DNA from: Ancylobacter vacuolatus
GTDB taxonomy: Bacteria > Pseudomonadota > Alphaproteobacteria > Rhizobiales > Xanthobacteraceae
Direction: 5' to 3'
DNA length: 64,000 nucleotides
Assembly (NCBI RefSeq): GCF_030813595.1
Contig: NZ_JAUSUH010000010.1
Location: 1 to 64,000 of the forward strand
Part shown: positions 24,937 through 40,588 of the stretch, in pieces
Position numbering within the stretch: position 1 is the first letter of the stretch
Layout of the letters: every line of letters begins with the position of its first letter
The notes under the pieces: generated by a model
Database searches by the model: none
The model's input: the letters and a program-made list of their open reading frames with translations, nothing else
What the model was told of the DNA's origin: nothing
Translations under genes and position numbers: made by a program

Positions 24937-24950
24937 CCGGTTCGCGGCGG

Positions 24951-26474
24951 TCACATCACCGCGCCGATCTGCCAGGGCACGAACTCGTTGCGGCCATAGC
25001 CCAGCAACTCCGACTTGGAGCGCCGGCCGGAGGCGATGTCGAGCACCAGCTGGAAAATCTCCCGGCCCTTCTCCTCGATGCTCACGCCGTCGAGCACATC
25101 GCCGCAATTCAGGTCCATGTCCTCTTCCATCCGGGCGAACAGCTCGGAATTGGTGGCGAGCTTGATCGAGGGCGTCGGCTTGCAGCCATAGGCCGAGCCG
25201 CGCCCGGTGGTGAAGCACAGCATGTTCGCCCCGCCCGCCACCTGCCCGGTGGCGGCGACGGGATCATAACCGGGCGTGTCCATGTAGACGAAGCCGCGGC
25301 GGTCGATGCGCTCGGCGTAGCGATAGACCCCGCGCAGCGTCGAGGTGCCGCCCTTGGCGACCGCGCCGAGCGACTTCTCCAATATGGTGGTCAGTCCGCC
25401 CGCCTTGTTGCCCGGCGAGGGATTATTGTTGAGCTCGCCCCCCGAACGGGCGGCATAGTCGGTCCACCACTCGATGAGATCGACGATCCGGCGCCCCACC
25501 GCCTCGCTCTCGGCGCGGCGGGTGAGCAGGTGCTCGGCGCCGAAAATCTCCGGCGTTTCCGACAGGATGGCCGTGCCGCCCTGGCGGACGAGCAGGTCCA
25601 CCGCCGCCCCCAGCGCCGGGTTGGCGGTGAGGCCGGAATAGCCGTCCGAGCCTCCGCACTGCAGCGCCAGCACGAGTTCGCTCGCCGGCACGCTCTCGCG
25701 GGAGACGGCGTTGGCGGCGGGCAGCATGGCGCGGATCTTCTCTACCCCGGCCTCGATCGACTTGCGGGTGCCGCCGATGTCCTGGATCGTCAGGCTCTGG
25801 AAATGCGGGCCTTCGACCAGGCCGTATTCCCGCTTGAGGCGCGGGATCTGGAACACCTCGCAGCCGAGGCCGATCAGCAGCACGGCGGCGAAATTGGGAT
25901 GGCTCGCATAGCCCCATTGGGTGCGGGCGAGAATGTCGAACTCCTCGCCCTTGGCGCCCATGCCGCAGCCCGTGCCATGGGTGAAGGCGACCACGCCGTC
26001 GACATTGGGGTAGTCGTCGAGCATGCCGGAGCGCGTCACCGCCTCGGCGATGAAATCGGCCACCGTCGCCGAGCAGTTCACCGAGGAGAGGATGCCGATA
26101 TAGTTGCGGGTGCCGACCCGCCCGTCGGCGCGGCGGAAGCCCTCGAAGCTGGCGGGCGCCTCGCCGGGCCGCAGCCCTTCCTGCGGCGTCGCCTCGGAGG
26201 CGAAGGCATAGTCGCGCTCGAAATCCTGCAGCCGCACATTGTGTTCATGCACCCAGTCGCCGGGGGCGATGTCGCTGGCGGCGAAGCCGATCACCTGGCC
26301 GAATTTGCGGATCGCCTCGCCGGCGGCAATCGGGCGGGTGGCGATCTTGTGCCCCTTCGGCACATGGCGCGTCGCCACGACCCCCTCGGCGAGGGCCGTG
26401 CCGGTGGGCAGGCTGTCGAGGGCGACAAGGATGTTGTCGGTGGCGTTGAGACGCAGCGTGCGCGGTGTGGTCAT
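24951..26474 (-). CDS. uxaA: Altronate dehydratase (UxaA family)
   Basis: 507 residues, with both parts of the family: an N-terminal SAF-like domain (about 5-75, with LAEGVVATRHVPKGHKIA) and the C-terminal dehydratase domain starting near GRVGTRNYIGILSSVNCSAT. HGTGCGMG and LQCGGSDGYSG carry the conserved Cys residues likely to bind iron. UxaA dehydrates D-altronate to 2-keto-3-deoxy-D-gluconate; GarD-type relatives act on galactarate. Because a tagaturonate reductase and a KDG kinase lie at the other end of the island, altronate is the best fit. Divergence from the transport operon puts it under the adjacent GntR regulator, by inference. Confidence 0.85.
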   Translation of the reverse strand: MTTPRTLRLNATDNILVALDSLPTGTALAEGVVATRHVPKGHKIATRPIAAGEAIRKFGQVIGFAASDIAPGDWVHEHNVRLQDFERDYAFASEATPQEGLRPGEAPASFEGFRRADGRVGTRNYIGILSSVNCSATVADFIAEAVTRSGMLDDYPNVDGVVAFTHGTGCGMGAKGEEFDILARTQWGYASHPNFAAVLLIGLGCEVFQIPRLKREYGLVEGPHFQSLTIQDIGGTRKSIEAGVEKIRAMLPAANAVSRESVPASELVLALQCGGSDGYSGLTANPALGAAVDLLVRQGGTAILSETPEIFGAEHLLTRRAESEAVGRRIVDLIEWWTDYAARSGGELNNNPSPGNKAGGLTTILEKSLGAVAKGGTSTLRGVYRYAERIDRRGFVYMDTPGYDPVAATGQVAGGANMLCFTTGRGSAYGCKPTPSIKLATNSELFARMEEDMDLNCGDVLDGVSIEEKGREIFQLVLDIASGRRSKSELLGYGRNEFVPWQIGAVM

Positions 26475-26616
26475 CGGGTCCGAACCTCAAGCCCGCCGCC
26501 CGGCGCACGCCACGCCTGGGCGAAGGCGGGCCGACGGCGAATGTCTTTTATGTATAAACGACAGCGCAAGGCGGGCGCTGTCAATCTGCTTCTTGCCGAC
26601 CGGAGGCCCGCGCGCC

Positions 26617-27312
26617 TCAGCGCGGCTCGCTCTCGATCCAGCGGCGCTTCGATTCTTCGAGATGGGCATGCATCCGCATCTGGGCGAGCGGCACGTCGCG
26701 CGCCTCCAGCGCCGCGAGAATGGCCTCATGCTCGGCCAGCGCATGGCGCCAGGTGGCCGGCGTGTCGAAGCGCGCGCGGAACTGCGACGAGATCGGGCTG
26801 TGGCGTTCGTCAAACAGCTCGCCCACCAGCCGGACGATCACGCTGTTGCCGGACTGCGCGGCGATGGCGAGGTGGAACTGCCGGTCATGCCCCAGCGGCT
26901 TGCGCCCCTCCTCGATATCGGCCCGCATCGCCTCCAGCGTCATCCGCAGCCCCCGCAGCGTCGCCGGCGTGAAGCGCGCGCCGGCCAGGCCAATCACCGC
27001 CGCCTCCACCGTCGCCCGCGCTTCCATCAGCTCCACCGCGCTCTCGCCCGTCGCCGCCTGCGAGAGCGTGCGCCGCTCGACGGCGGCGGCGACATAGATG
27101 CCGGACCCCATGCGGATCTCGACCGTGCCGTCGATTTCGAGCGCGATCAGCGCCTCGCGCAGGGAGGGGCGCGACACGCCCAGCTGCTGCGCCAGGTCAC
27201 GCTCCGCCGGCAGGCGGCTGCCCACCTCGAAATGGCCTTTCTGGATCAAGCCGCGAATCTGATCGGCGACCTGCTGGTAAAGCCGCCGCTCCGAGGTCCG
27301 ATTGATGTTCAT
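26617..27312 (-). CDS. GntR/FadR-subfamily transcriptional regulator
   Basis: 231 residues. The winged helix (about 8-75) contains the classic LPAERDLAQQLGVSRPSLRE helix-turn-helix and a GSGIYV wing. The FCD effector domain follows (about 90-215), with D..H and later His residues expected to bind a metal and a sugar-acid ligand. The gene is divergent from the ABC transporter operon and probably represses it and itself. Two similar candidate operators, TTGGC-N3-ACCA, lie in the gap. The inducer is probably an acid from the fucose/galactonate pathways, by inference. Confidence 0.9.
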   Translation of the reverse strand: MNINRTSERRLYQQVADQIRGLIQKGHFEVGSRLPAERDLAQQLGVSRPSLREALIALEIDGTVEIRMGSGIYVAAAVERRTLSQAATGESAVELMEARATVEAAVIGLAGARFTPATLRGLRMTLEAMRADIEEGRKPLGHDRQFHLAIAAQSGNSVIVRLVGELFDERHSPISSQFRARFDTPATWRHALAEHEAILAALEARDVPLAQMRMHAHLEESKRRWIESEPR

Positions 27313-27328
27313 CCGTCACACTCTTGAT

Positions 27329-27447
27329 TTGGCCTTACCATATCCCGGATACGCCTTTCGGCCAAGGGCATTCATCTTATTGGAAAATAGCGATATTTCT
27401 TCAGGTTGTACGATTTGACGCTTCAATCTGAAAAATTGGCTTGACCA
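27329..27447. promoter_or_regulatory. Two candidate GntR operators (TTGGC-N3-ACCA)
   Basis: TTGGCCTTACCA (27329-27340) and TTGGCTTGACCA (27436-27447) share nine of twelve bases and resemble the TTGGTATACCAA-like sites bound by UxuR/ExuR and other FadR-group proteins. They flank an AT-rich stretch (27375-27420) that probably holds both divergent promoters. Confidence 0.45.
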
Positions 27448-27545
27448 CTTTGAACGGAATGGCACCATAAAGACAGGTAGCAACCAACGGACAATGAGAT
27501 CCGCACAGCGGACGCATGTCGCCTCAGGCGGCCGGGAGGAATGCC

Positions 27546-29111
27546 ATGCCGAGCGGCGTGATCGCCGACGGTCGGATCGACGCGCCGCCCATACGGGCGG
27601 CGGGCGAGACGCTGCTGTCGCTGGAGAATATCTGCAAGGAATTCCCGGGCGTTAAGGCGCTGCAGGGGGTCCACTTCAATCTGCGGCGCGGCGAGGTGCA
27701 TGCGGTCTGCGGCGAGAACGGCGCCGGCAAGTCGACCCTGATGAAGATCATCAGCGGCGTCTACGCCCCGACCTCGGGACGCCTCGTCTACAAGGGCCAG
27801 CCCTGCAGCTTCGCCTCGCCGCTGGAAGCGGAAGCGGTCGGCATCGCCATCATCCACCAGGAACTCAACCTCATCCCCCACCTCTCGGTGGCAGAGAACA
27901 TCTATCTTGCCCGCGAGCCCCGGCGCGGCTTCTTCGTCGACCGCAAGGCGCTACGGGCGAACGCCAAGGCCTGCCTCGACCGGCTCGGCGTGGCCATCGA
28001 TCCCGACCGGCTGGTGCGCGAACTCTCGGTCGCGCAATGCCAGATGGTGGAAATCGCCAAGGCGCTGTCGCTCGACGCGCAGGTGCTCATCATGGACGAG
28101 CCCACCTCCTCGCTCACCGAGCAGGAGACGCGCCTGCTGTTCAAGGTCATCCACGATCTGCGGGCCTCGGGCGTCGGCATCGTCTACATCTCGCACCGTC
28201 TCGACGAGATGGCGGAGATCGTCGACCGCGTCACCGTGCTGCGCGACGGGCGCTACATCGCCACCGACGATTTCGCCGCCACCAGCGTCGACGCCATCGT
28301 CGCCCGCATGGTCGGCCGCTCGCTGGAGGAGAAATTCCCCGAGCGCCGCGCCCGCCCGACCACCGACGTCATCCTCTCGGCGCGTGGCCTGACCCGCCAC
28401 CGCGTGTTCCAGGACATCGACTTCGATCTCTATCGCGGTGAAATCCTCGGCTTTGCCGGGCTGATGGGGGCGGGACGCACCGAGGTGGCGCGCGCCATCT
28501 TCGGCGCCGACACGCTCGACGCCGGCACGGTCTCGCTGGAAGGGCGGGTGCTCGACATCCGCTCGCCGCGCGACGCCATCAAAGCCGGCCTCGCCTATCT
28601 CTCCGAGGACCGCAAGGCGCAGGGCCTCGCCGTCAAGATGCCGGTCGACGCCAACATGACGCTGGCGAACATGGAGGCGGTGTCGAACCGCTTCGGCGTG
28701 ATCGACTTCACCCGGCATGCAGAGGTCGCGAAGGAATATATCGACCTGCTCAGCATCAAGACCCCCTCCCCCGACCAGCCGGTGCGCCTGCTGTCGGGCG
28801 GCAACCAGCAGAAGATCATCATCGGCAAATGGCTGTTCCGCCAGTCGCGAGTGCTGATCTTCGACGAGCCGACGCGCGGCATCGATGTCGGCGCCAAGTT
28901 CGCGATCTACCAGATCATGGACGAACTGGCGGCGAAGGGGATCGGGGTCATCCTCATCAGCTCCGAGTTGCCGGAAATACTGGGAATGACCGACCGGGTC
29001 GCCGTGTTCCACCACGGCCGCATCGCCGGCGTGCTGGAAACCGCCGCCACCTCCCAGGAGGAAATCATGCACTTCGCGTCCGGTTACGGACGACCGGCCG
29101 GCCGCGGCTGA
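27546..29111 (+). CDS. Sugar ABC transporter, ATP-binding protein (RbsA/MglA type)
   Basis: 521 residues from ATG 27546, preceded by GGGAGGA five bases earlier; an ATG 30 bases upstream lacks such a site. It has two nucleotide-binding domains in one chain. The first has Walker A GENGAGKST, a signature region LSVAQCQMVEIAKAL and Walker B MDEPTSSL. The second has a degenerate Walker A (GLMGAGRTE) but an intact LSGGNQQK signature and DEPTRGID, as in RbsA and MglA. It energises import with the permease and binding protein immediately downstream, and opens the ten-gene sugar operon. Confidence 0.95.
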   Translation: MPSGVIADGRIDAPPIRAAGETLLSLENICKEFPGVKALQGVHFNLRRGEVHAVCGENGAGKSTLMKIISGVYAPTSGRLVYKGQPCSFASPLEAEAVGIAIIHQELNLIPHLSVAENIYLAREPRRGFFVDRKALRANAKACLDRLGVAIDPDRLVRELSVAQCQMVEIAKALSLDAQVLIMDEPTSSLTEQETRLLFKVIHDLRASGVGIVYISHRLDEMAEIVDRVTVLRDGRYIATDDFAATSVDAIVARMVGRSLEEKFPERRARPTTDVILSARGLTRHRVFQDIDFDLYRGEILGFAGLMGAGRTEVARAIFGADTLDAGTVSLEGRVLDIRSPRDAIKAGLAYLSEDRKAQGLAVKMPVDANMTLANMEAVSNRFGVIDFTRHAEVAKEYIDLLSIKTPSPDQPVRLLSGGNQQKIIIGKWLFRQSRVLIFDEPTRGIDVGAKFAIYQIMDELAAKGIGVILISSELPEILGMTDRVAVFHHGRIAGVLETAATSQEEIMHFASGYGRPAGRG

Positions 29112-29122
29112 CGGAGCAGGGA

Positions 29123-30154
29123 ATGACGATGACCGTGACCACCCCACCCGCGCCCGCCCGTGGCGGCCTGACCGACCGGCAGAAGGACATCGTCCAGAAA
29201 TTCGCCGCGCTGGGCAGCCTTCTCGTGCTGATCGTGGTGTTTTCGCTGAGCAGCGGCGCCTTCTTCACCGTCAATAACGGCATGACCATCGCCCTGCAGG
29301 TGACCTCCATCGCCCTGCTCGGCATCGGCGCGACCTGCGTCATCATCACCGGCGGCATCGATCTCTCGGTCGGCTCGGTGCTGGCGCTCTCGGGCGTCAT
29401 CGCCGCACTGGCGGTGAAGGAACTCGGCATGCCGGTGCCCTTCGCGATGATGTTCGGCATCCTCACCGGCGCCTTCTGTGGCCTCGTCAACGGCATACTC
29501 GTCACCCGCCTGCGGCTGCCGCCCTTCATCGCCACGCTCGGCATGATGCTGATCGCGCGCGGCGTGGCGCTGCAGATCACCGGGGCCCGGGCGATCTCGG
29601 GGCTGGGCGAATCCTTCGGCGTGCTCGGCAATGGCGCGTTGTTCCGCGTCGTCACCATTGCCGATGACGGCTTTCCCACCGTGGTCTTCCCCGGCATCCC
29701 CTACCCGGTGATCCTGATGGCGGTGATCGCCGTCGCCGTCTCGCTGATGCTCAACCGCTCGGTGCTCGGCCGGCACATCTATGCGGTGGGCTCCAACAGC
29801 GAGGCCGCGCGCCTGTCGGGCGTCGATGTCGCCGGCGTCACCCGCTTCACCTATGTGCTCTCCGGCGCGCTCGCCGGCCTCACCGGCTGCGTGCTGATGT
29901 CCCGCCTCGTCACCGCCCAGCCCAATGAGGGCGTGATGTACGAGCTCGACGCCATCGCCAGCGCCGTCATCGGCGGCACGTCGCTGATCGGCGGCGTGGG
30001 CACCATTTCCGGCACCTTCATCGGCTCGTTCGTGATCGGCATCCTGCGCAACGGGCTGAACATGAACGGCGTCTCCGCCTTCACCCAGCAGATCATCATC
30101 GGCCTGGTGATCCTGCTCACGGTGTGGATCGACCAGCTGCGCAATCGAAAATAA
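29123..30154 (+). CDS. Sugar ABC transporter permease (RbsC type)
   Basis: 343 residues from ATG 29123, eleven bases after the ATPase gene. It is a hydrophobic protein with about eight to ten membrane helices. The family motif GGIDLSVGSVLALSG is near residue 80, and the EAA-like loop with GSNSEAARLSGVDV is near 230. It forms the inner-membrane channel, presumably as a homodimer, with the neighbouring ATPase. Confidence 0.94.
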   Translation: MTMTVTTPPAPARGGLTDRQKDIVQKFAALGSLLVLIVVFSLSSGAFFTVNNGMTIALQVTSIALLGIGATCVIITGGIDLSVGSVLALSGVIAALAVKELGMPVPFAMMFGILTGAFCGLVNGILVTRLRLPPFIATLGMMLIARGVALQITGARAISGLGESFGVLGNGALFRVVTIADDGFPTVVFPGIPYPVILMAVIAVAVSLMLNRSVLGRHIYAVGSNSEAARLSGVDVAGVTRFTYVLSGALAGLTGCVLMSRLVTAQPNEGVMYELDAIASAVIGGTSLIGGVGTISGTFIGSFVIGILRNGLNMNGVSAFTQQIIIGLVILLTVWIDQLRNRK

Positions 30155-30195
30155 GCCGGCGACCGCGAGGCGGCGCCATCTACCAGGAGGAAACC

Positions 30196-31149
30196 ATGAA
30201 GAAAATCGTCACAGCCCTGCTCGCCTCTGCGGTTCTGTTCGGCGGCGTCGCCGCCCAGTCCACCGCGCAGGCCGGCGAAATCGCCGTCATCGTCAAGACC
30301 GTCAACTCCACCTTCTGGCAGAATGTGCAGAAGGGCGCCGACGCCGCGCTCAAGCAGGCGGGCGGCGGCAACACGCTGACCTTCCAGGGCCCGGCCTCGG
30401 AATCCGCCATCGCCGACGAGGTGAACATGGTGGAGAACGCCGTCAATCGCGGCGTCGCCGGCATTGTGCTCGCCCCGTCCGATCCGGACGCGCTGGTCCC
30501 CGCCGTCAAGAAGGCGTGGGAAGCCCGCATTCCGGTGGTCATCATCGACTCCCTGCTCGCGAAGGGTGCCGAGCAATATTACCAGTCCTACCTCGCCACC
30601 GATAACCGCAAGGCGGGCGAGCTGGCGGCGCAGGCGCTGATCGACAAGGTCGGCACCGAGGGCAAGATCGCCGTCATGTCCTATGTCGCCGGCGCCGGTT
30701 CCGAGATCGGCCGCGTGGGTGGCTTCACCGACTACATCAAGGCGCATTCCAAGCTGGAAATCGTCGGCCCGTTCTATTCGCAGTCGCAGATGGCGACGGC
30801 GCTGAACCAGACCACCGACGTGCTCGCCGCCAATCCCGACCTCAAGGGCATTTTCGGCGCCAATGAGCCGACCGCGATCGGCATGGCCCGCGCCATCAAG
30901 CAGGCCGGCAAGTCCGGCAAGATCGTCGCCGTCGGCTTCGACGGCAATCAGGACCTGCAGGAATTCGTCAAGGATGGCACGCTGGCCGCGATCATCGTGC
31001 AGGGCTCGTTCCAGATGGGCGAACTCGGCGTGCAGACCGTCTCCAAGCTGATCAAGAAGGAGAAGGTCGAGAAGTTCGTCGACACCGGCGCTGTGGTGGT
31101 GACCAAGGCCAATATCGACCAGCCGGAAGCCAAGAACGTCCTCTACTGA
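30196..31149 (+). CDS. Sugar ABC transporter, periplasmic binding protein (RbsB type)
   Basis: 317 residues from ATG 30196 with an AGGAGG ribosome-binding site. A signal peptide ends near AQA at 24-26. The mature protein is a type I periplasmic binding protein: IAVIVKTVNSTFWQNVQKGA, then GIVLAPSDPDALVPAVKKA, and NEPTAIGMARAIKQAG. It delivers a sugar to the permease. From the downstream enzymes I infer L-fucose and possibly L-galactose as ligands, but binding specificity cannot be read directly. Confidence 0.93.
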   Translation: MKKIVTALLASAVLFGGVAAQSTAQAGEIAVIVKTVNSTFWQNVQKGADAALKQAGGGNTLTFQGPASESAIADEVNMVENAVNRGVAGIVLAPSDPDALVPAVKKAWEARIPVVIIDSLLAKGAEQYYQSYLATDNRKAGELAAQALIDKVGTEGKIAVMSYVAGAGSEIGRVGGFTDYIKAHSKLEIVGPFYSQSQMATALNQTTDVLAANPDLKGIFGANEPTAIGMARAIKQAGKSGKIVAVGFDGNQDLQEFVKDGTLAAIIVQGSFQMGELGVQTVSKLIKKEKVEKFVDTGAVVVTKANIDQPEAKNVLY

Positions 31150-31223
31150 GCCCTTCCTCCCCGCCTCACGGGACGCGGATCCGTGCCGCGTCCCGCCTTT
31201 CCCCAGAACGGATCCGCATCATC

Positions 31224-32228
31224 ATGAAGGTCGGCGATCGGCGCATTCATGCCCGCAGCGGCGTGTCCCTGACAGGGATGGGCCTTGGCTGCGCGCAGAT
31301 GGGCAACCTCTACCGCGTCACCCCCTATGCCGAGGCCGCCGGCGCGTTTGAGGCCGCCTGGGACGCGGGCATCCGCACCTTCGACACCGCCCCCTTCTAT
31401 GGCTACACCCGCTCCGAACTGCGCCTCGGCACGATGCTGACCGAACGGCCGCGCGCGGACTACACCGTCTCCACCAAGGTCGGCCGGGTGATGACCCCGG
31501 ACCCGAGCGTCGGCGTGGAGGAGGACGGCTTCGCCGAGCCCCTGCCCTTCCGCCCGGTCTATGACTACACCCATGACGGCATAATGCGCTCCTTCGAGGC
31601 CAGCCAGTCCCGCCTCGGGATTCTCTCGCCCGACATTCTCTATGTGCACGACATCGGCCGCTTCACCCATGGCGCGCGCCACGCGCAGTACTGGGGCCAG
31701 CTCACCGAGGGCGGCGGCTTCCGCGCGCTGACCCGGCTGCGCGAGCAGGGCGCGATCAAGGCCTTCGGCCTCGGCGTCAACGAGTTCGAGGTCATCGCGG
31801 CGGCGATCGAGGTCGCCGATCTCGACATCTGCATGCTGGCCGGCCGCTACACGCTGCTGGAGCAGCAGAGCCTCGCCTTCATGGATTCCTGCGCGGCGCG
31901 CGGCATCGGCATCGTCGTCGCCGGCCCGTTCAATTCCGGCATTCTCGCCGGCAGCGCCAAGTTCAACTATGGCGACGCCCCGGCCGACATCGTCGCCCGC
32001 GTCGAGGCGCTGCGCGCGGCCTGCGCGGCGGAGGGAGTGAATCTCCAGACCGCCGCGCTGCACTTTCCCCTCGCCCACCCCGCCGCGCTCACCGTCGTCT
32101 CCGGCGCCCGCAACGCGGCGCAGGTGCGCGACAATGTCGAGCGGTTCGAGGCGGCGGTGCCCTCCGCCTTCTGGACCCGGCTGAAGGAGCGCGGCCTCAT
32201 CGCCGACAGCGCTCCGGTGCCAGGCTGA
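31224..32228 (+). CDS. Aldo/keto reductase, probable L-fucose (L-galactose) dehydrogenase
   Basis: 334 residues with a TIM-barrel aldo/keto reductase fold. FDTAPFYGYTRSELRLG carries the catalytic Asp and Tyr; STKVGR has the Lys; ILYVHDIGR has the His-equivalent. It belongs to the D-threo-aldose 1-dehydrogenase / pyridoxal dehydrogenase group, whose members oxidise L-fucose and L-galactose at C1 with NAD(P)+ to the lactone. The next gene is a lactonase, and the rest of the L-fucose route follows, which supports this role. Enzymes of this group commonly accept both sugars. Confidence 0.82.
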   Translation: MKVGDRRIHARSGVSLTGMGLGCAQMGNLYRVTPYAEAAGAFEAAWDAGIRTFDTAPFYGYTRSELRLGTMLTERPRADYTVSTKVGRVMTPDPSVGVEEDGFAEPLPFRPVYDYTHDGIMRSFEASQSRLGILSPDILYVHDIGRFTHGARHAQYWGQLTEGGGFRALTRLREQGAIKAFGLGVNEFEVIAAAIEVADLDICMLAGRYTLLEQQSLAFMDSCAARGIGIVVAGPFNSGILAGSAKFNYGDAPADIVARVEALRAACAAEGVNLQTAALHFPLAHPAALTVVSGARNAAQVRDNVERFEAAVPSAFWTRLKERGLIADSAPVPG

Positions 32229-32241
32229 GGGGGGAGCGGTC

Positions 32242-33081
32242 ATGCGTATCGACGCCCATCAGCATTTCTGGCGCATCGCCGACCGGGGCGGCCAGTGGCC
32301 CCCGCCCGATCTCGCGCCGATCTATCGTGACTTCGGCCCGGAGGATCTCGCGCCGCTGCTCGCCGCCGCCGGCATCGAGGGCACGGTCCTCGTCCAGACC
32401 ATGGAGCGCACGGCCGACACCGCCTATATGCTCGACCTCGCGGCGCGCCATCCCTTCATCAGGGCGGTGGTGGGCTGGACCGACATGAAGGCGCCCGATG
32501 CGGAAGGCGCCATTGCCCGGCTCGCCGCCCATCCCCGGCTGAAGGGCCTGCGCGCCATGCTGCAGGACATCGCCGCCGACGACTGGATCACGGATCCGGC
32601 GCTGGCGCCGGCGGTCGGCGCGATGGTCGCGCATGATCTCGCCTTCGACGCGCTGGTGCTGCCGCGCCATCTGCGCCCGCTCTTCGCCTTCGCCGCGCGC
32701 CATCCCGAGCTCAGAATCGTCATCGACCATGGCGCCAAGCCGCTGATCGGCGAGGGGCGGATCTCGCGCTGGCGGGCCGATCTCGCCGCCCTCGCGGCTC
32801 TGCCCAATGTCTGGTGCAAGCTGTCCGGCCTGCTCACCGAGGCCGACGGGCGCGGCCCGGCCGCGGTGCGCCCCTATGGCGAGACGCTGCTCGACCTGTT
32901 CGGCCCCGCGCGGCTGATCTTCGGCAGCGACTGGCCGGTGCTGCGCCTCGCCGGCGACTATGCCGGCTGGCTCGCGCTGTGCCGCGACATCGTGCCGGCC
33001 GACCACCACGACGCCGTGTTCGGCGCCAATGCGGCCCGCTTCTACCGCCTGGACGGCGACACTCTCGCCGCCGCGAACTGA
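32242..33081 (+). CDS. Amidohydrolase-family lactonase, probable L-fuconolactonase
   Basis: 279 residues. The N-terminal MRIDAHQHFWRI motif is the metal-site HxH of amidohydrolase-superfamily lactonases (COG3618). VIDHGAKPLI and the C-terminal FGSDWPVLRLAG motif with the catalytic Asp are also in place. L-fuconolactonases of this group open L-fucono-1,4/1,5-lactone to L-fuconate and have been reported to act on L-galactono-lactone as well. It sits directly after the dehydrogenase that would make its substrate. Confidence 0.85.
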   Translation: MRIDAHQHFWRIADRGGQWPPPDLAPIYRDFGPEDLAPLLAAAGIEGTVLVQTMERTADTAYMLDLAARHPFIRAVVGWTDMKAPDAEGAIARLAAHPRLKGLRAMLQDIAADDWITDPALAPAVGAMVAHDLAFDALVLPRHLRPLFAFAARHPELRIVIDHGAKPLIGEGRISRWRADLAALAALPNVWCKLSGLLTEADGRGPAAVRPYGETLLDLFGPARLIFGSDWPVLRLAGDYAGWLALCRDIVPADHHDAVFGANAARFYRLDGDTLAAAN

Positions 33082-33090
33082 GAGACGACC

Positions 33091-34101
33091 ATGCTGACGA
33101 TCATCTGCGACGCGCCCGGCAAGCTGTCGGCCATCGAACGCGAGAAACCGGTGCGCGGCGAGGGCGAGGTCCTTCTCCGGCTGCGCCGCATCGGCGTCTG
33201 CGGTACCGACCTGCACATCTTCGCCGGCAAGCAGCCCTATCTCTCCTATCCCCGCGTGATGGGGCATGAACTGGCCGCGACGGTGGAGGAAGCGCCCATT
33301 GGCAGCCGGCTGGCGCCCGGCGATGTCGTCTCGGTCATTCCCTACATCTCCTGCGGCCAGTGCAGCGCCTGCCGCAAGGGAAAGACCAATTGCTGCCGCA
33401 ACCTCGGCGTGCTCGGCGTGCACCGCGACGGCGGCATGGCCGAGTTCATCTGCCTGCCGGAACCCTTCGTGCTGAAGGCCGAAGGTCTCAGCCTCGACCA
33501 GGCGGCGATGGTGGAATTCCTCGCCATCGGCGCCCATGCGGTGGCGCGGGCGGGCACCGGCCCGGGCGACAGCGTGCTGATCGCCGGCGCCGGGCCGATC
33601 GGCGCCGCCGTCGCCCTCTTCGCCCGCAGCGCCGGGGCAAAGGTCACGCTCATCGACGGGCGCGAGGACCGGCTGGCCTTCGCCCGGGCCCATCTCGGCG
33701 TCGCGGCGACCGTCCTGCTCGGGCCGGGCGATGCGGAGGAACTCGCACGGCTCACCGATGGCGACTTCTTCGACGCGGTGTTCGACGCCACCGGCAGCCC
33801 CAAGGCGATCGAGCGCGGCTTCGGCTTCGTCGGCCATGGCGGCACCTATGTGCTGGTGTCGATCGTCGCCAGCGACATCACCTTCTCCGATCCGGAATTC
33901 CACAAGCGCGAGACCTCGCTGCTCGGCAGCCGCAACGCGACGGTGGCCGACTTCGAGCGGGTGATGGCGGCGATCCGCGCCGGCGAGGTGCCGGACGCGC
34001 TCATCACCCATCGCCTGCGCCTGTCCGAGGTGCCGGAAAAATTCGCCACCCTCGCCGAACCCAGCGCGGGCGTGGTCAAGGCACTGATCGAAGTGGCGTG
34101 A
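33091..34101 (+). CDS. Zinc alcohol dehydrogenase, probable L-galactonate 5-dehydrogenase (LgoD-like)
   Basis: 336 residues, a medium-chain dehydrogenase. Catalytic zinc ligands are Cys37, His59 and Glu60; structural zinc Cys88, Cys91, Cys94 and Cys101/102 lie in SCGQCSACRKGKTNCC. The NAD-binding motif is GAGPIG at 166-171. Several stretches closely match E. coli YjjN/LgoD, notably VCGTDLH, LGVHRDGG and SDPEFHKRETSLLGSRNAT. LgoD oxidises L-galactonate to D-tagaturonate. That product has no place in the L-fucose route, but tagaturonate reductase and altronate dehydratase genes lie in the same island. Confidence 0.78.
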   Translation: MLTIICDAPGKLSAIEREKPVRGEGEVLLRLRRIGVCGTDLHIFAGKQPYLSYPRVMGHELAATVEEAPIGSRLAPGDVVSVIPYISCGQCSACRKGKTNCCRNLGVLGVHRDGGMAEFICLPEPFVLKAEGLSLDQAAMVEFLAIGAHAVARAGTGPGDSVLIAGAGPIGAAVALFARSAGAKVTLIDGREDRLAFARAHLGVAATVLLGPGDAEELARLTDGDFFDAVFDATGSPKAIERGFGFVGHGGTYVLVSIVASDITFSDPEFHKRETSLLGSRNATVADFERVMAAIRAGEVPDALITHRLRLSEVPEKFATLAEPSAGVVKALIEVA

Positions 34102-34130
34102 GCGGGAGGGCGCGTGAGCGGGAGGACAGC

Positions 34131-34460
34131 ATGCAACGCATGGGAATGATGATCGGCCTCGAGCCGCATAGTGTGGAACGCTACAGGGAACTGCACGCGG
34201 CGGTGTGGCCGCAGGTGCTGGCGCTGCTCACCGCCAGCAACATCCGCAACTACACCATCTTCCTGCGTGAGCCTGAGAACATCCTGTTCGGCACCTGGGA
34301 ATATCACGGCAGCGATTTCGCCGCCGACATGGCGAAGATCGCCGCGGATCCGACGAATCAGGAATGGTGGAGCCTGACCATCCCCTGCCAGCGCCCGCTC
34401 GCCACCCGCAAGGAGGGCGAATGGTGGGCGTCGATGGAAGAAGTGTTCCACCTCGACTGA
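34131..34460 (+). CDS. L-rhamnose mutarotase-family protein (L-fucose mutarotase role)
   Basis: 109 residues from ATG 34131 with GGGAGGA upstream. The family (RhaM/YiiL, COG3254) is recognised from LEPHSVERYRELHAAVWP, the NIRNYTIFLREP strand, the MAKIAADPTNQEWW motif and the final Trp-Glu-Val-Phe-His segment. These small dimers interconvert pyranose anomers of 6-deoxy-sugars; in non-phosphorylating L-fucose clusters such a gene is used for L-fucose. It would speed supply of the right anomer to the dehydrogenase. Confidence 0.88.
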   Translation: MQRMGMMIGLEPHSVERYRELHAAVWPQVLALLTASNIRNYTIFLREPENILFGTWEYHGSDFAADMAKIAADPTNQEWWSLTIPCQRPLATRKEGEWWASMEEVFHLD

Positions 34461-34484
34461 ACCATCAGCAAAGGAAAACTGGCC

Positions 34485-35216
34485 ATGGCCACTCTTGAGG
34501 GCAGGACCGTCCTCGTCACCGCGAGCGCGCAGGGCATCGGCCGCGCCAGCGCGCTCGGCTTTCTCGCCGCCGGCGCGCGGGTCATTGCCACCGACATCAA
34601 CGCGGCGCTGCTGGCGGAACTGCCGCCCTCACCGCTTCTCACCACCGCCCGGCTGGACGTGCTTGATGAGGCCGCCGTCGCCGATTTCATCGCCGGCATC
34701 GGCCCGGTGGACGTGCTGTTCAACTGCGCCGGTGTGGTGCATCCCGGCAGCATTCTCGACATGAAGGAGGGCGATCTCGATTTCGCGTTCGATCTCAACG
34801 TGAAGTCGATGGTGCGCACCATCCGTGCCGTCCTGCCCGGCATGATCGCCCGGCGCGACGGCGCCATCATCAACATGTCGTCGGTGGCGTCCTCGCTGAA
34901 GGGCGTGCCGAACCGCTTCGCCTACAGCGTCACCAAGGCGGCGGTGATCGGGCTCACCAAGTCGGTGGCGGCCGATTATGTCGGCCACAACATACGCTGC
35001 AACGCCATCTGCCCCGGCACGGTGGAAAGCCCCTCGCTGCAGGACCGGCTGCGGGCGCAGGGGGACTATGAGGCGGCGCGCGCGGCCTTCATCGCCCGCC
35101 AGCCGATCGGGCGCATCGGCACGCCGGAGGAAATCGCCGATCTCGCCGTGCATCTGGCCGGCGCCACCTACACCACCGGCCAGGCCTTCGCCATTGATGG
35201 CGGCTGGTCGCTCTGA
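34485..35216 (+). CDS. SDR oxidoreductase, probable 2-keto-3-deoxy-L-fuconate dehydrogenase
   Basis: 243 residues, classical short-chain dehydrogenase. The cofactor motif reads TASAQGIG (12-19) instead of TGxxxGIG, which is usual for this subgroup (TAAGQGIG in relatives). NCAG is at 80-83, the catalytic Ser at 132-133, and Tyr147/Lys151 in YSVTK. These enzymes oxidise C4 of 2-keto-3-deoxy-L-fuconate to give 2,4-diketo-3-deoxy-L-fuconate with NAD+. The next gene encodes the hydrolase for that product. Confidence 0.86.
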   Translation: MATLEGRTVLVTASAQGIGRASALGFLAAGARVIATDINAALLAELPPSPLLTTARLDVLDEAAVADFIAGIGPVDVLFNCAGVVHPGSILDMKEGDLDFAFDLNVKSMVRTIRAVLPGMIARRDGAIINMSSVASSLKGVPNRFAYSVTKAAVIGLTKSVAADYVGHNIRCNAICPGTVESPSLQDRLRAQGDYEAARAAFIARQPIGRIGTPEEIADLAVHLAGATYTTGQAFAIDGGWSL

Positions 35217-35237
35217 TCCGCATGTGAGGACGACAGA

Positions 35238-36083
35238 ATGAAACTGGTACGCCACGGCCTTGCCGGCCGGGAAAAGCCCGGCCTGATCGACGCGCAGGGC
35301 CGCATCCGCGATCTCTCCGCCCATCTCGCGGACATTGCCGGCGCCGCGCTGGCGCCCGCCGTGCTGGCCGATCTCGCCGCGCTCGACCCGGCGACGCTGC
35401 CTCTGGTCGCGGAGGGAACCCGCCTCGGCCCCTGCGTGAGCGGAACCGGCAAGTTCGTCTGCATCGGCCTCAATTTCTCCGACCATGCCGCCGAATCCGG
35501 CATGGCGGTGCCGCCCGAGCCGGTGGTGTTCATGAAGGCGACCTCGGCGATCTCAGGCCCGCATGACGATGTGCCGATCCCGCGCGGCGCCAGCAAGACC
35601 GACTGGGAGGTGGAGCTGGCCATCATCATCGGCCGGACGGCGAAATATGTCAGCGAAGCCGACGCGCTCGATTATGTCGCCGGCTACTGCATCTGCAACG
35701 ACGTGTCGGAACGTGAATTTCAGCTGGAGCGCGCCGGCCAGTGGACCAAGGGCAAATCCTGCGACGGCTTCGGCCCGATCGGCCCGTGGCTGGTGACGCG
35801 GGACGAGATTCCCGATCCGCAGAACCTCGCCATGTGGCTGACGGTGAATGGCGAGACGCTGCAGAACGGCTCGACCCGGACCATGGTGTTCGGCGCCGCC
35901 TATCTCGTCTCCTATCTCAGCCAGTTCATGAGCCTCCACCCCGGCGACATCATCTCAACGGGAACCCCGCCCGGCGTCGGCCTCGGCTTCAAGCCGCCAC
36001 GCTACCTCAAGGCCGGCGACGTCGTCGAACTCGGCATTGAGGGGCTGGGCACGCAGAGGCAGATTTTCGTTTCCGACATCTGA
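35238..36083 (+). CDS. FAH-family hydrolase, probable 2,4-diketo-3-deoxy-L-fuconate hydrolase
   Basis: 281 residues of the fumarylacetoacetate hydrolase family. FVCIGLNFSDHAAESG begins the catalytic domain; the metal ligands lie in DWEVELAIIIGR (EVE) and in CNDVSEREFQ with its Asp. KGKSCDGFGPIGPW and ISTGTPPGVGLGFKPP are characteristic. In the last step of the non-phosphorylating L-fucose route this enzyme would cleave the diketo acid to pyruvate and L-lactate. Genes of this type are often labelled ureidoglycolate lyase, which the context here argues against. Confidence 0.86.
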   Translation: MKLVRHGLAGREKPGLIDAQGRIRDLSAHLADIAGAALAPAVLADLAALDPATLPLVAEGTRLGPCVSGTGKFVCIGLNFSDHAAESGMAVPPEPVVFMKATSAISGPHDDVPIPRGASKTDWEVELAIIIGRTAKYVSEADALDYVAGYCICNDVSEREFQLERAGQWTKGKSCDGFGPIGPWLVTRDEIPDPQNLAMWLTVNGETLQNGSTRTMVFGAAYLVSYLSQFMSLHPGDIISTGTPPGVGLGFKPPRYLKAGDVVELGIEGLGTQRQIFVSDI

Positions 36084-36110
36084 TCGCGGCTCCGCGCCGG
36101 GAGGCCTACC

Positions 36111-37409
36111 ATGGTGAAGATCACCGATATGCGGGTCATCGACCTGCGCTTTCCCACCTCGCACGCGCTCGACGGATCGGACGCGATGAACCCCGATCCC
36201 GACTATTCGGCCGCCTATGTCATCCTCGACACCGACGAGCCGGCGCTGAAGGGGCACGGGCTCACCTTCACCATCGGGCGCGGCAACGACATCTGCTGCA
36301 TGGCGATCCTCGCCATGCGCCACCTCGTGGTCGGCACGGATCTCGACGTGGTGCGCGCCGCCCCCGGCGCCTTCTGGCGGCACCTCACCAGCGACAGCCA
36401 GCTGCGCTGGATCGGCCCGGAAAAGGGCGCGATGCACCTCGCCACCGGCGCGGTGGTCAACGCCTTCTGGGACCTTCTCGCCAAGCAGGCCGGCAAGCCG
36501 GTCTGGCGCCTCGTCGCCGATCTCCCCCCCGAGGCGATCGCCGACATCGTCGACTACCGCTACCTCACCGACGTGCTCGACCGCGACGACGCGCTCGCCA
36601 TCCTGCGCCGGGCCGAGGCCGGCAAGGCCGAGCGCATCGCCCTCCTCGAGCGCGAGGGCTATGCCTGCTACACCACCTCGGCCGGCTGGCTCGGCTATGA
36701 CGACGCCAAGCTGCGGCGCCTCTGCCAGGAGGCGATCGAGGCCGGCTTCAACCATGTGAAGATGAAGGTCGGGCGCGATCTCGACGACGACATCCGCCGC
36801 CTCACCATCGCCCGCGAGGTGATCGGGCCGGACCGCTATCTGATGATCGACGCCAACCAGGTGTGGGAGGTCGGCCAGGCGATCGACTGGGTGCGCGCGC
36901 TCGCCTTCGCCAAGCCCTTCTTCATCGAGGAACCGACCAGCCCCGACGACATCGCCGGGCACCGCAAGATCCGCGCGGCCATCGCGCCGGTGAAGGTGGC
37001 GACCGGCGAGATGTGCCAGAACCGCATCATGTTCAAGCAGTTCATCGCCGAGGGCGCGATCGATGTGGTGCAGATCGATTCCTGCCGCATGGGCGGGCTG
37101 AACGAGGTGCTGGCGGTGCTGCTGGTGGCGGCGAAATACGGCCTGCCGGTCTGGCCGCATGCCGGCGGCGTCGGCCTGTGCGAATATGTGCAGCATCTGT
37201 CGATGATCGACTATGTCGCCGTCTCCGGCACCAAGGACGGCCGGGTGATCGAATATGTCGACCATCTGCACGAGCATTTCCTCGACCCGTGCGTGATCGA
37301 GAATGCCGCCTACATGCCGCCCCGCCAGCCGGGATTCTCCATCGAAATGAAGCCGGAAACGCTTTCCGCCTTCGCTTATGTGTCGGCGGAAACCCGGCCG
37401 GCCGCCTGA
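36111..37409 (+). CDS. L-fuconate dehydratase
   Basis: 432 residues, enolase superfamily. The active site lines up with Xanthomonas L-fuconate dehydratase, shifted by one residue: Lys217 and Lys219 in KMK, metal ligands Asp247, Glu273 and Glu300, and His350 in the WPHAGG motif. Lys219 and His350 would be the acid/base pair. The N-terminal RFPTSHALDGSDAMNPDPDY segment is also typical. The enzyme removes water from L-fuconate to give 2-keto-3-deoxy-L-fuconate and closes the ten-gene operon. Confidence 0.94.
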   Translation: MVKITDMRVIDLRFPTSHALDGSDAMNPDPDYSAAYVILDTDEPALKGHGLTFTIGRGNDICCMAILAMRHLVVGTDLDVVRAAPGAFWRHLTSDSQLRWIGPEKGAMHLATGAVVNAFWDLLAKQAGKPVWRLVADLPPEAIADIVDYRYLTDVLDRDDALAILRRAEAGKAERIALLEREGYACYTTSAGWLGYDDAKLRRLCQEAIEAGFNHVKMKVGRDLDDDIRRLTIAREVIGPDRYLMIDANQVWEVGQAIDWVRALAFAKPFFIEEPTSPDDIAGHRKIRAAIAPVKVATGEMCQNRIMFKQFIAEGAIDVVQIDSCRMGGLNEVLAVLLVAAKYGLPVWPHAGGVGLCEYVQHLSMIDYVAVSGTKDGRVIEYVDHLHEHFLDPCVIENAAYMPPRQPGFSIEMKPETLSAFAYVSAETRPAA

Positions 37410-37459
37410 GCGCGGGCCGATAGGACACGGGCGGCGCGCAGGCGGCGCCCGTGTGTGCC

Positions 37460-38587
37460 TCAGCCGGCCGCGTGGCGGGCGAGGATGTCCGCGAGCACAG
37501 GCGTCGCCGGCGCGCCGGGCTGGCCGGCGATCCACTGAACAAACGCGCCGATGCGGCGCTCGATCTTCACGCCATGGTTCTGCGCGATGTCGGCGATGCG
37601 GTGGTCGAGGAACGGGTTGCGGAAGCGGTCGAGCGTGACGCCGACATAGGCGCGGGCTTCATCCGCCATGCCGCGCGCGCAAAAACCCGGCACCACCTCC
37701 CCGGCATAGAGCGTCGCGAGCCGGGCGGAGACGGCGGCATCGGCGAGGATTTCCCGCACGGTCTCGCCGGCCGGGCGCCCCTCCTCCGCCCAGATCTCGG
37801 CCAGCACGGTGTGGCCGAGATTGAGAATATGCAGCTTCAGCCGCTCGAACGGTTCGAGGTTGTCGGTCAGCACCACGCTGGGGTGGGTGAAGGGCAGTTC
37901 CAGCCCCGGCCGGCGCTCGATCGCCCACAGCGCATAGGGCTCGGCAACGGCCCCGACCGGCTCGATCGGCTCGGAGACGATGCGATCGACCAGCGTATTG
38001 GCGAAGATCACCGAGCGGTCGATCCAGCCGGCGAAGGCCGGCGGCGCCCCGCTTGCAGTCGCGAGCCGGCCCACCTCGGCCGCCAGCACCTCGCCATTGC
38101 GGTTGATCAGCTCGCAGGGCAGCACGGTCAGCGGGCCGCCGCCGGCGCTCCAGCGATGGTGCAGCAGCGCGGTGAGCTTGGCCGGAAAGGAGGCCGGCAC
38201 CCCGCCGGCGAGCAGCGCGGGCGTTGCCTCCTCCGGCGCCACCCGATAGCCGGAATCGCCCATATTGGAGATCACCAGCCGGGCCTCGCCCGCGAACAGC
38301 GCCTTGATCGCCGCCCAGTCGGCCACCGCCGACAGGCCCCGGTCGACCGAGCGCACCTGCACCTCGCGCTCGCACGGCGTGCCGTCGACGATGCCGCGAA
38401 GGCGCACGGGAAAGCCTTCCGGCCGGCCGAACGCCGCGACCCGGCCGGCACGGTCGCCCGAGCCGGAGGCCTGCACGATGGCGATCGGCCCGATATCCTG
38501 CCCCGCCTCGCGCGCCTCATGCACGAAGAGATCGGCATGGGCCTGCAGGAACCGGCTGGTGCCGAACTGGATGATACGAACGCTCAC
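37460..38587 (-). CDS. uxaB: Mannitol-dehydrogenase-family reductase, probable tagaturonate reductase
   Basis: 375 residues. It has an N-terminal Rossmann start (IIQFGTSRFLQAHADLFV). The polyol-dehydrogenase active-site segment KLHILNLGHTVLAE has the Lys, Asn and His of the K-x-x-x-x-N-x-x-H signature, and PCELINRNGEVL matches the UxaB/UxuB style. It is shorter than E. coli UxaB (about 480). The likely reaction is NADH-dependent reduction of D-tagaturonate to D-altronate, since an altronate dehydratase is encoded at the other end of the island. Fructuronate or another ketonic acid is a possible alternative. It is transcribed against the operon and divergent from the double-HTH GntR gene. Confidence 0.78.
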   Translation of the reverse strand: MSVRIIQFGTSRFLQAHADLFVHEAREAGQDIGPIAIVQASGSGDRAGRVAAFGRPEGFPVRLRGIVDGTPCEREVQVRSVDRGLSAVADWAAIKALFAGEARLVISNMGDSGYRVAPEEATPALLAGGVPASFPAKLTALLHHRWSAGGGPLTVLPCELINRNGEVLAAEVGRLATASGAPPAFAGWIDRSVIFANTLVDRIVSEPIEPVGAVAEPYALWAIERRPGLELPFTHPSVVLTDNLEPFERLKLHILNLGHTVLAEIWAEEGRPAGETVREILADAAVSARLATLYAGEVVPGFCARGMADEARAYVGVTLDRFRNPFLDHRIADIAQNHGVKIERRIGAFVQWIAGQPGAPATPVLADILARHAAG

Positions 38588-38639
38588 GCCGTCTGAATCC
38601 CTTGTGCGAACAACTTACTGGAAGAATTGCGGCCACAGC

Positions 38640-38654
38640 TGTCCACGCTGGACA
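38640..38654. promoter_or_regulatory. Palindromic candidate operator TGTCCA-CGC-TGGACA
   Basis: This perfect 6-3-6 palindrome lies in the 145-bp gap between divergent uxaB and the second GntR gene, 53 bases from the uxaB start and next to an AT-rich stretch (38665-38690). Position and symmetry suggest the operator of the divergent regulator. Confidence 0.55.
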
Positions 38655-38732
38655 CAGGCTGTCAATGTGTTTTTAATACAGAAAGAACAGGCCGCCCGCT
38701 CACCCGGGGGTGCAGAGGCGGGGCGGGGCATC

Positions 38733-39656
38733 ATGAAAGGCAATGCCGTCTTCAAGAGCGGCTATAATCGCTGCCTCCAGCGCCTCGGTGCCCTGTCACC
38801 CGGCGCCGCCCTGCCCTCGGAGAGCGACCTCGCCCACGCGCTGGAGGTCAGCCGCACCACGGTCCGCGCGATACTGGCGGCGCTGCAGGAGCGCGGCATC
38901 ACCGAGCGCCGGGACGGGCAGCGCCGGCTCGCCCGCGCCCCGACACCGGCCGATCACTTTCCCGACGCGCAGACCCTGTCGGCGGGCGCGACGTTCGAGC
39001 GCCGCTTCATGGAATGGATCCTCACGGGCGATCTCAGTCCCGGCCAGTTGCTGAACGCGGCCGAGCTGGCGCGCCAGTTCGGCACCTCGACCACCACCAT
39101 CCGCGAATGTCTCGCCCGCTTCCAGCATTTCGGCCTGCTGGAACGCCGGCCGAACAGCTCCTGGCTGTTCGGCGGCGTCACCGGCGACTTCGTGCGGGAA
39201 ATGTACGAGGTGCGGGAAATGTTCGAGCTGCGGGCCACGCGCAGCTTGCTGGAACTGCCCGACAGCGCGCCCGCCTGGCGCGAATTGGCGGCGATCGAGC
39301 AGGAGCACCGCGACATCCTCGCCCATCTCGACCGGGACCATGCGCTGTTTCCCCAGCTCGACGAGCGCCTGCACCGCATCATTCATGAGACCACGCGCAA
39401 CCGCTTCGTGCTGGACTTCTACACCGTCGTCGCGACCTTGTTTCACCACACCTATCGCTGGAACCGTGACGACGCCAAGCCGCGCAGCGCCACCGCGCTG
39501 GTGGAGCATCTCGACTATATCGCCGCGCTGCGCAGCCGCGACCCGCGCGCCATCGACGCCAGCTGCCGGAAGCATCTGCGCACCGCGTGCGCCACGCTCA
39601 TCCGCTCGCTGGAAGCCCGCGCGACCACCCCCTCATGTGCCGGAGCCGTAGTGTGA
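38733..39656 (+). CDS. GntR-type regulator with two tandem winged-helix domains
   Basis: 307 residues from ATG 38733. The first winged helix (about 10-66) contains ALPSESDLAHALEVSRTTVR; a second (about 85-148) contains LLNAAELARQFGTSTTTIRE. An FCD-like helical domain follows (about 155-290), with possible metal ligands Asp210, His214/218, His259 and His281. Most FadR-group proteins have one DNA-binding domain. The gene overlaps kdgK by four bases (GTGA) and is divergent from uxaB, so it probably controls the altronate/KDG half of the island. Confidence 0.85.
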   Translation: MKGNAVFKSGYNRCLQRLGALSPGAALPSESDLAHALEVSRTTVRAILAALQERGITERRDGQRRLARAPTPADHFPDAQTLSAGATFERRFMEWILTGDLSPGQLLNAAELARQFGTSTTTIRECLARFQHFGLLERRPNSSWLFGGVTGDFVREMYEVREMFELRATRSLLELPDSAPAWRELAAIEQEHRDILAHLDRDHALFPQLDERLHRIIHETTRNRFVLDFYTVVATLFHHTYRWNRDDAKPRSATALVEHLDYIAALRSRDPRAIDASCRKHLRTACATLIRSLEARATTPSCAGAVV

Positions 39657-40588
39657 CCAGGATATTTGCCAGCATCGGCGAATGCATGATCGAGATGTCC
39701 CTCACTGCCGAGGGGCTCTATCGACGCGGCTTCGCCGGCGACACGCTCAACACCGCCTGGGGTGTGCGCGGGCTCACCGATCCGGCGCGGGTCGGCGTGC
39801 GTTATGTGACGCGGGTCGGCGCGGACGCCTCGTCGGGGGAAATGGTGCGCTTCATCGCCGATGCGGGCATCGACACCGGCCATATCGGGCGCGAGCCCGA
39901 CCGTCCGGTCGGCCTCTACATGATCGCCCTGCAGAACGGCGAGCGCTCCTTCTCCTATTGGCGCGACACGTCGGCGGCGCGGCGGCTCGCCGCCGACGCG
40001 GACGTGCTGCAGCAGGCGCTCGCGGATGCGGACAGCATCTATTTTTCCGGCATCACTTTGGCGATTCTCTCCCCGCCGCATCGCCAGACGCTGCTGGACC
40101 AGCTGGCCGAAGCGCGCGCCCGGGGAGCGATGATCGCGTTCGACGCCAATATCCGGCTCAATCTGTGGCCGGATCGCGCCGCCGCCCGCGCCGCGCTCGA
40201 TGCGGGCTATCGCGTCGCGACCCTCGCCCTGCCGACCTTCCCCGACGAGGCTGACCTGTTCGGCGACACCTCGCCGGAAGCGACCGCGCGCCGGCTGACC
40301 GGCTGTGGTGCCGAGGAGATCGTGGTCAAGAACGGCGCCGATCCCTGCACCCTGCTGGTGGGCGAGCGGATCGAGACCATCGCGCCCGTCGCCGTCGTGG
40401 ACCCGCTGGATACCACCGGCGCGGGCGACAGCTTCAATGCCGGCTACATCGCCGCGCGCCTCGACGGCGCGGCGCCCGCCGACGCCGCCCGCTTCGCCCA
40501 TCGCGTGGCCGCGCGGGTGATCGGCCGTCGCGGGGCGCTCATCGACATGGCGGAGCTGCGCGCTGGCACTGGCTCGGGGCTGACATAG
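39653..40588 (+). CDS. kdgK: 2-keto-3-deoxygluconate kinase (PfkB family)
   Basis: 311 residues from GTG 39653, overlapping the upstream regulator's stop. Ribokinase-like fold: SIGECMIEMSL at the N-terminus, GFAGDTLNTAW for sugar binding, RYVTRVGADASSGEM, and the C-terminal DTTGAGDSFNAGY with the catalytic Asp and anion hole. GECMIEM and the AGDTLNTA pattern favour KDG kinase over ribokinase or fructokinase. It would phosphorylate 2-keto-3-deoxy-D-gluconate, made by altronate dehydratase, to KDPG. No KDPG aldolase is seen in the window. Confidence 0.86.
   Translation: MTRIFASIGECMIEMSLTAEGLYRRGFAGDTLNTAWGVRGLTDPARVGVRYVTRVGADASSGEMVRFIADAGIDTGHIGREPDRPVGLYMIALQNGERSFSYWRDTSAARRLAADADVLQQALADADSIYFSGITLAILSPPHRQTLLDQLAEARARGAMIAFDANIRLNLWPDRAAARAALDAGYRVATLALPTFPDEADLFGDTSPEATARRLTGCGAEEIVVKNGADPCTLLVGERIETIAPVAVVDPLDTTGAGDSFNAGYIAARLDGAAPADAARFAHRVAARVIGRRGALIDMAELRAGTGSGLT

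Follow-up and report, generated by a model that had tools for sequence, protein, structure and literature searches.

L-Galactose is the 6-hydroxy analogue of L-fucose, and its catabolism has been described in few bacteria. Here we report on a gene cluster of Ancylobacter vacuolatus that appears to join the degradation of both sugars. It lies in the window, a stretch of 64,000 nucleotides (contig NZ_JAUSUH010000010.1, positions 1 to 64,000), and comprises 15 genes (24951-40588) between a tRNA-Val gene and the HU and Lon genes in the list of open reading frames (ORFs). The genome (G000; G denotes genomes and L loci) has 5.02 Mb and is 100% complete. Among named records, Xanthobacteraceae bacterium 501b (93% in UxaB) and Ancylobacter species come closest.

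A paper of 2025 established an L-galactose pathway whose later enzymes are the same as here (PMC12632266). In the available text of that paper, Lgo-type enzymes act on L-galactonate, and a pair of tagaturonate reductase and altronate dehydratase then follows. The lgu system of Luteolibacter LG18, for L-glucose and L-galactose, resembles the window in having an aldo/keto reductase (AKR) as sugar dehydrogenase, an L-galactonate 5-dehydrogenase, tagaturonate reductase, altronate dehydratase, 2-keto-3-deoxygluconate (KDG) kinase and 2-keto-3-deoxy-6-phosphogluconate (KDPG) aldolase. Unlike the window, it is described there without an L-fucose arm, its first enzyme LguA does not use L-fucose, and kinase and epimerase are encoded outside the lgu cluster. 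In Phocaeicola (Bacteroides) vulgatus, as cited in the same text, an L-galactose dehydrogenase and an L-galactonate dehydrogenase (BVU_0219/BVU_0222) lead to D-tagaturonate as proposed for the window, but no fucose arm is described there. L-Galactonate catabolism of Escherichia coli (LgoD, UxaB, UxaA, KdgK, Eda) is the branch that we propose here; in E. coli, however, uxaC and exuT adjoin uxaA, and UxaB has 483 residues compared to 375 in the window. The non-phosphorylating L-fucose pathway of Xanthomonas, Herbaspirillum and Burkholderia shares with the window a mutarotase, an L-fucose dehydrogenase, a lactonase, the L-fuconate dehydratase FucD, a short-chain dehydrogenase/reductase (SDR) and a hydrolase, but the available texts describe no LgoD/UxaB/UxaA branch (PMC6336799, PMC11199699). 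Acidovorax is described with an L-galactonate dehydratase route instead (PMC6336799).

The closest described loci are those of Halomonas, for which joint L-fucose/L-galactonate loci were predicted in 2017 in a paper whose main text does not mention L-galactose (PMC5507952). According to that text, the loci of Halomonas HL-48 and HL-93 and the L-galactonate locus of Chromohalobacter salexigens carry, like the window, lgoD, uxaA and uxaB (or uxaF) beside genes of the non-phosphorylating L-fucose route, and co-regulation was suggested for them too. A tripartite ATP-independent periplasmic (TRAP) importer for L-fuconate/L-galactonate was proposed there, whereas the window has a single ATP-binding cassette (ABC) importer of the sugar type and one front end. 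The window further differs in that lgoD lies inside the fucose operon, in its two GntR regulators and in being an island. Co-location of L-fucose and L-galactonate genes is thus already published, as far as that text goes, which reduces the novelty of the present cluster. An L-fucose/L-galactose pair with a shared importer and shared first three enzymes in one mobile block was not found in the literature searched, subscription papers aside.

Two branches predicted behind one proposed front end

The sequence suggests that this catabolic block moves horizontally and that a single front end feeds two branches, for L-fucose and L-galactose; we put the probability of this reading at roughly two in three. 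The uxaA-like gene and gntR1 point leftward, the genes from the importer through fucD rightward, the uxaB-like gene leftward, and gntR2 and kdgK rightward. The ORF positions of an initial annotation of this DNA hold, but we corrected two starts by our own reading of the sequence, that of the permease to near 29123 and that of GntR2 to near 38733.

Both sugars would be taken up by the ABC importer, whose ATPase gene (27546-29111, +) adjoins the genes of the permease (29123-30154, +) and the periplasmic sugar-binding protein (30196-31149, +) in a conserved arrangement; homologues of the binding protein at least 60% identical occur in clusters free of FucD. A RhaM-type mutarotase (34131-34460, +; PF05336), the AKR (31224-32228, +; PF00248), a proposed L-fucose/L-galactose 1-dehydrogenase, and an amidohydrolase (32242-33081, +), a proposed L-fucono/L-galactono-lactonase, would then yield L-fuconate and L-galactonate. 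The sole solved match of the AKR at 1e-20 is L-galactose dehydrogenase (9w6y). The genome has one AKR of this type at E <= 1e-25, as has G410, so both sugars would have to share that enzyme. The lactonase (NF052480; 4dlf) reaches 217 bits with its best NCBIfam model, that of L-fucono-1,5-lactonase (cut-off 400).

The initial annotation had listed every step of the non-phosphorylating L-fucose route, and family searches agree: FucD, SDR and a FAH-type hydrolase stand with the front-end enzymes in one cluster. L-Fuconate would be converted to pyruvate and L-lactate by FucD (36111-37409, +), the SDR (34485-35216, +), a proposed 2-keto-3-deoxy-L-fuconate 4-dehydrogenase, and the hydrolase (35238-36083, +; PF01557), a proposed 2,4-diketo-3-deoxy-L-fuconate hydrolase. 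The best solved match of FucD is 4ip4, an uncharacterised protein of the enolase superfamily (711 bits), followed by solved L-fuconate dehydratases (558 bits). The SDR has 8xwk/8y4j/8y11 and human DHRS6 as top solved matches, and the hydrolase scores 422 bits with the model of 2,4-didehydro-3-deoxy-L-rhamnonate hydrolase (NF053535, cut-off 500).

Inside the fucose operon and superfluous to the fucose route, as the initial annotation had pointed out, lies the gene of a zinc dehydrogenase (33091-34101, +) with 41% identity to E. coli LgoD (250 bits). Its residues C37, H59, E60, C88, C91, C94 and C102, of the zinc type, are invariant in 19 sequences. An RspB-like function was rejected because identity to RspB is lower (29%, 139 bits); NF007489 is a model that fits RspB (694 bits) but does not fit LgoD (206 bits), and hence is no test of LgoD. 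The enzyme would oxidize L-galactonate at C5 to D-tagaturonate, which the short UxaB-like reductase (37460-38587, -; NF002969) would reduce to D-altronate. This reductase scores 195 bits with the tagaturonate reductase model (cut-off 359) against 54 bits with that of fructuronate reductase, and its K-x4-N-x2-H motif, at residue 251, is invariant in 20 sequences. It is not a truncated or broken UxaB: 375 residues are typical of a common short subfamily, the usual form in 33 of 397 genomes of the same order. The UxaA-like dehydratase (24951-26474, -; PF20629, PF04295, PF08666), 36% identical to E. coli UxaA and a member of the galactarate/altronate dehydratase family with best models below their cut-offs, would form KDG from D-altronate. 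A PfkB-type KDG kinase (39653-40588, +; PF00294; NF052444, 269 bits, cut-off 400) would phosphorylate KDG, and the product would be split by a KDPG aldolase, which the initial annotation had suggested seeking elsewhere in the genome and which is encoded at G000:C6:181496-182068 (TIGR01182, eda, 242.5 bits, above the cut-off of 156.05).

The company that the LgoD-type gene keeps in other genomes argues for this branch. At thresholds of 45% identity and 200 residues it has short UxaB nearby in 75 of 80 named loci, which are the top 80 among 587 relatives and lean to near kin, and in 23 of the 33 same-order loci. It lies near FucD in only 2 of 40 loci; these come from 40 of the 60 other genomes in which FucD has a match, and some of them are cut by contig ends. 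The LgoD-type gene is thus a partner of UxaB and not of the fucose route. The LgoD-like genes of fucose operons (the window, L149, L150, L152, L105 and L108) form one clade (support 100/99) in a tree in which very long branches of the E. coli rows call for caution. The sister of this clade, L084, has an ABC importer, lactonase, lgoD and uxaB without fucose-specific genes within the stretch fetched.

Several clusters lack fucD, sdr and fah, at the thresholds set and within the stretch fetched; genes in these loci were called by a codon-position heuristic and tblastn, which replaced naive longest-ORF calling, unreliable in GC-rich DNA, and may miss small genes. L215, from a Rhodospirillales metagenome-assembled genome, holds LacI, a glycoside hydrolase family 29 (GH29) alpha-L-fucosidase, lgoD, uxaB, the AKR gene, a FucU-type mutarotase and a lactonase. 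Eleven loci from Rhizobiaceae and unclassified Rhizobiales (L218-L228) combine the AKR gene, an ABC importer, lgoD, uxaA and uxaB, and five same-order loci (L082, L088, L090, L093, L094) the AKR gene with lgoD and uxaB. On a plasmid of Neorhizobium sp. SOG26 (L207), an ABC importer, AKR, lactonase and rhaM mutarotase accompany uxaB, while fucD, sdr, lgoD, gntR1 and uxaA are found on the chromosome (L233). Since this genome has one such reductase, the enzyme must serve what the plasmid and chromosome parts degrade. Clusters free of fucose genes thus hold LgoD/UxaB together with front-end genes, which fits the needs of an L-galactose route. The set of lgoD, uxaB and uxaA, as these loci read, is also kept through rearrangement. 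In L152, gntR1-uxaB-uxaA is divergent from a fucose operon with lgoD. In A. crimeensis (L155, G403), the fucose operon has no lgoD and stands beside a separate uxaB/lgoD/uxaA module, whose lgoD is the only match in that genome.

In two loci of Paracoccus (L210, L214), a tandem dehydrogenase/UxaB-type pair like that of the window adjoins a second, distant pair. Possibly, these are routes for two stereoisomers.

One-block insertion and probable control of the cluster

The initial annotation had spoken of an island, and comparison with relatives bears this out. The stretch 24733-41061, about 16.3 kb with junctions not fixed exactly, carries all cluster genes and is missing at the same site in three related genomes: G077 (L242), G398 (L243; this genome holds the Ancylobacter tetraedralis locus) and G403 (L244, A. 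crimeensis), in which 0.27 to 0.6 kb separate the HU gene from the tRNA-Val gene. The latter (24656-24731, -; ARAGORN) forms the left edge of the block in the window and adjoins the HU gene in the related genomes. Consequently, gain or loss at this site affected the genes of the two branches as one block. In G077, UxaB, FucD, the LgoD-like enzyme and the reductase are all without a match; G398 and G403 have related clusters elsewhere in the genome. No 18-mer of the tRNA-Val gene is repeated within 24732-41200, no integrase was seen among the ORFs read (no profile search for one was made), and GC content does not set the island apart.

Judging by DNA motifs, the two arms are likely to be controlled jointly. 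GntR1, a FadR-type regulator (26617-27312, -) with UxuR/LldR/ExuR-like NCBIfam matches that are all below cut-off, is encoded upstream of uxaA and divergently from the fucose operon. The sequences TTGGCCTTACCA and TTGGCTTGACCA occur between gntR1 and the importer. The GntR-operator-like pattern TTGGCYTKACCA has exactly two sites in the whole genome, 27329-27340 (+) and 27436-27447 (+), both in this divergent control region (reversed-pattern control: 1). It was drawn by eye from aligned intergenic stretches including that of the window, so its presence there is by construction; what tests the pattern is how rare it is genome-wide. Among 242 loci it occurs at the gntR1 loci of nine genomes (G000, G045, G295, G361, G397, G398, G400, G403, G410) and in L112, where one exact copy (L112:2392) stands at a locus without gntR1 and is unexplained. 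Joint control is likely because the sites are confined to the gntR1 region and because in L152 uxaB and uxaA lie by gntR1 and diverge from a fucose operon that includes lgoD. In the window, GntR1 is probably the regulator of uxaA and, from the same divergent region, of the fucose operon including lgoD. The genes uxaB and kdgK stand apart from gntR1, beside the gene of a second FadR-type regulator, GntR2 (38733-39656, +; PF00392, PF07729), which probably controls them. The palindrome TGTCCACGCTGGACA between uxaB and gntR2 (38640-38654, +) is a weak candidate operator, as 8 of 100 shuffles hold one. No motif is common to both intergenic regions, and that of GntR1 does not occur between uxaB and gntR2.

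It is tempting to speculate that a single-copy, promiscuous front end is committed to two sugars, that the route is decided only at the aldonate, by the presence or absence of a hydroxyl on C6, that GntR1 responds to an intermediate shared by both arms and that the dual pathway travels as one block. For this combination as a whole we hold the odds to be slightly below even.

Alternative substrates and meaning of the cluster

The later enzymes UxaA, UxaB and KdgK are also those of the isomerase pathway of D-galacturonate, as described in the available text of PMC6353982, and the initial annotation had considered this substrate while seeing no uxaC in the window. This absence extends to the entire genome, which has no UxaC-family match, although the same search was positive in 7 of 14 control genomes. 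Of 20 related or comparison genomes, 16 likewise lack UxaC, including the 11 Ancylobacter-type ones (G000 and ten others, G077 and G397-G405). A galacturonate pathway through UxaC was therefore rejected; it would also leave the lgoD gene unexplained, and with no UxaC-family match in a complete genome nor in ten related ones this reading is nearly refuted. Mutual exclusion of UxaC and short UxaB was tested as a further support, found not significant and not used. Still less probable is that FucD and the fucose arm handle L-galactonate, with LgoD as a marginal branch. FucD-type enzymes show overlap between L-fuconate and L-galactonate. Published accounts, as far as available, report such overlap for known sugar-acid dehydratases. 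This reading, however, would not explain why lgoD, uxaB, uxaA and kdgK moved as one block with the fucose genes.

The LgoD/UxaB/UxaA set might instead act on a stereoisomer, that is L-gluconate/L-glucose, as in lgn of Paracoccus and lgu of Luteolibacter, or L-gulonate. LguD uses L-gluconate and L-galactonate about equally (available text of PMC12632266), and the E. coli enzyme is reported, going by a paper title, in the quantification of L-galactonate and L-gulonate. We give this only a slim chance since the L-fucose enzymes share the C2-C4 configuration with L-galactose and not with L-glucose, and UxaB scores as a tagaturonate and not as a fructuronate reductase. Import of L-galactonate together with L-fuconate, as proposed for Halomonas, in place of free L-galactose is unlikely too, though the most probable of these alternatives. 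Joint L-fucose/L-fuconate/L-galactonate loci with a TRAP importer for aldonates were proposed in the text available (PMC5507952). Stand-alone uxaB/lgoD/uxaA modules of several related Ancylobacter have no AKR gene within them, and their ABC importer, which is of the amino-acid type, has a binding protein of the SBP_bac_3 family and could carry an acid, may point to an aldonate. Such modules occur at L155:11122-16661 and at similar Ancylobacter, Xanthobacter, Methylobacterium and Roseomonas loci; the importer type, unusual for a sugar-acid cluster, was checked in L155. However, the importer of the window is of the sugar type only, and clusters free of FucD elsewhere join lgoD/uxaB to AKR, lactonase and mutarotase genes. 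On sequence grounds, L-galactonate as substrate of the branch is better supported than free L-galactose as food.

These stand-alone modules are one of several points that weigh against a shared L-fucose/L-galactose front end with two branches. LguA, a published L-galactose dehydrogenase, has no activity on L-fucose according to the available text (PMC12632266), and a common first enzyme is therefore not a given. Most family scores, including those of the UxaB-like reductase, lactonase, FAH hydrolase and KDG kinase, are below equivalog cut-offs, so we infer the exact substrates. GH29 is absent from the genome. Short UxaB has no LgoD-type neighbour in 5 of the 80 named loci and in 10 of the 33 same-order loci (L071, L073, L074, L076, L077, L078, L085, L089, L095, L096); in L076 the ORF adjoining short UxaB has a start that by eye resembles FucU/RbsD mutarotases. 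In G295 and G361 the fucose operon includes lgoD and a UxaA homologue (55-56%) is present, but short UxaB is missing at 1e-30. In L105, L108 and L233 the place of UxaB next to fucD is taken by a UxuB-type reductase, the protein of L108 scoring 395 bits as fructuronate against 156 bits as tagaturonate reductase and that of L233 behaving alike; in G295 and G361, where this reductase faces fucD, it may substitute for UxaB or serve a different purpose. The clusters of these two genomes (L105, L108) and L233 yielded no FAH gene. Moreover, a UxaC-family match occurs in 15 of the 33 genomes with short UxaB and in 129 of the 364 without (p 0.26). The two are thus not mutually exclusive across the order, and the argument from missing UxaC is valid for this genome and not for the family. 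The genome also has a second UxaA paralogue (62%; G000:C7:150460-151962, within L234:9458-13392), which adjoins a GntR regulator and a UxuB-type reductase (472 bits as fructuronate against 182 bits as tagaturonate reductase). This locus is another sugar-acid pathway of similar style.

With these points included, the two-branch reading of the initial annotation is supported and fits best: the extra genes recur elsewhere without fucose genes, the dehydrogenase is LgoD-like, UxaC is absent and the AKR is single. The sequence itself shows the gene content, the insertion, the missing UxaC, the recurring LgoD/UxaB pair and the two exclusive motif sites; the substrates, the common front end and the regulation are inferred from it. 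If the reading is true, many Hyphomicrobiales and Acetobacteraceae whose genomes are now annotated with galacturonate genes, or with a zinc dehydrogenase that lacks an explanation, would in fact use L-galactose or L-galactonate, and the family of short UxaB proteins would gain a function. The cluster would then be a clean case of two pathways that share their enzymes until one hydroxyl group decides the branch.

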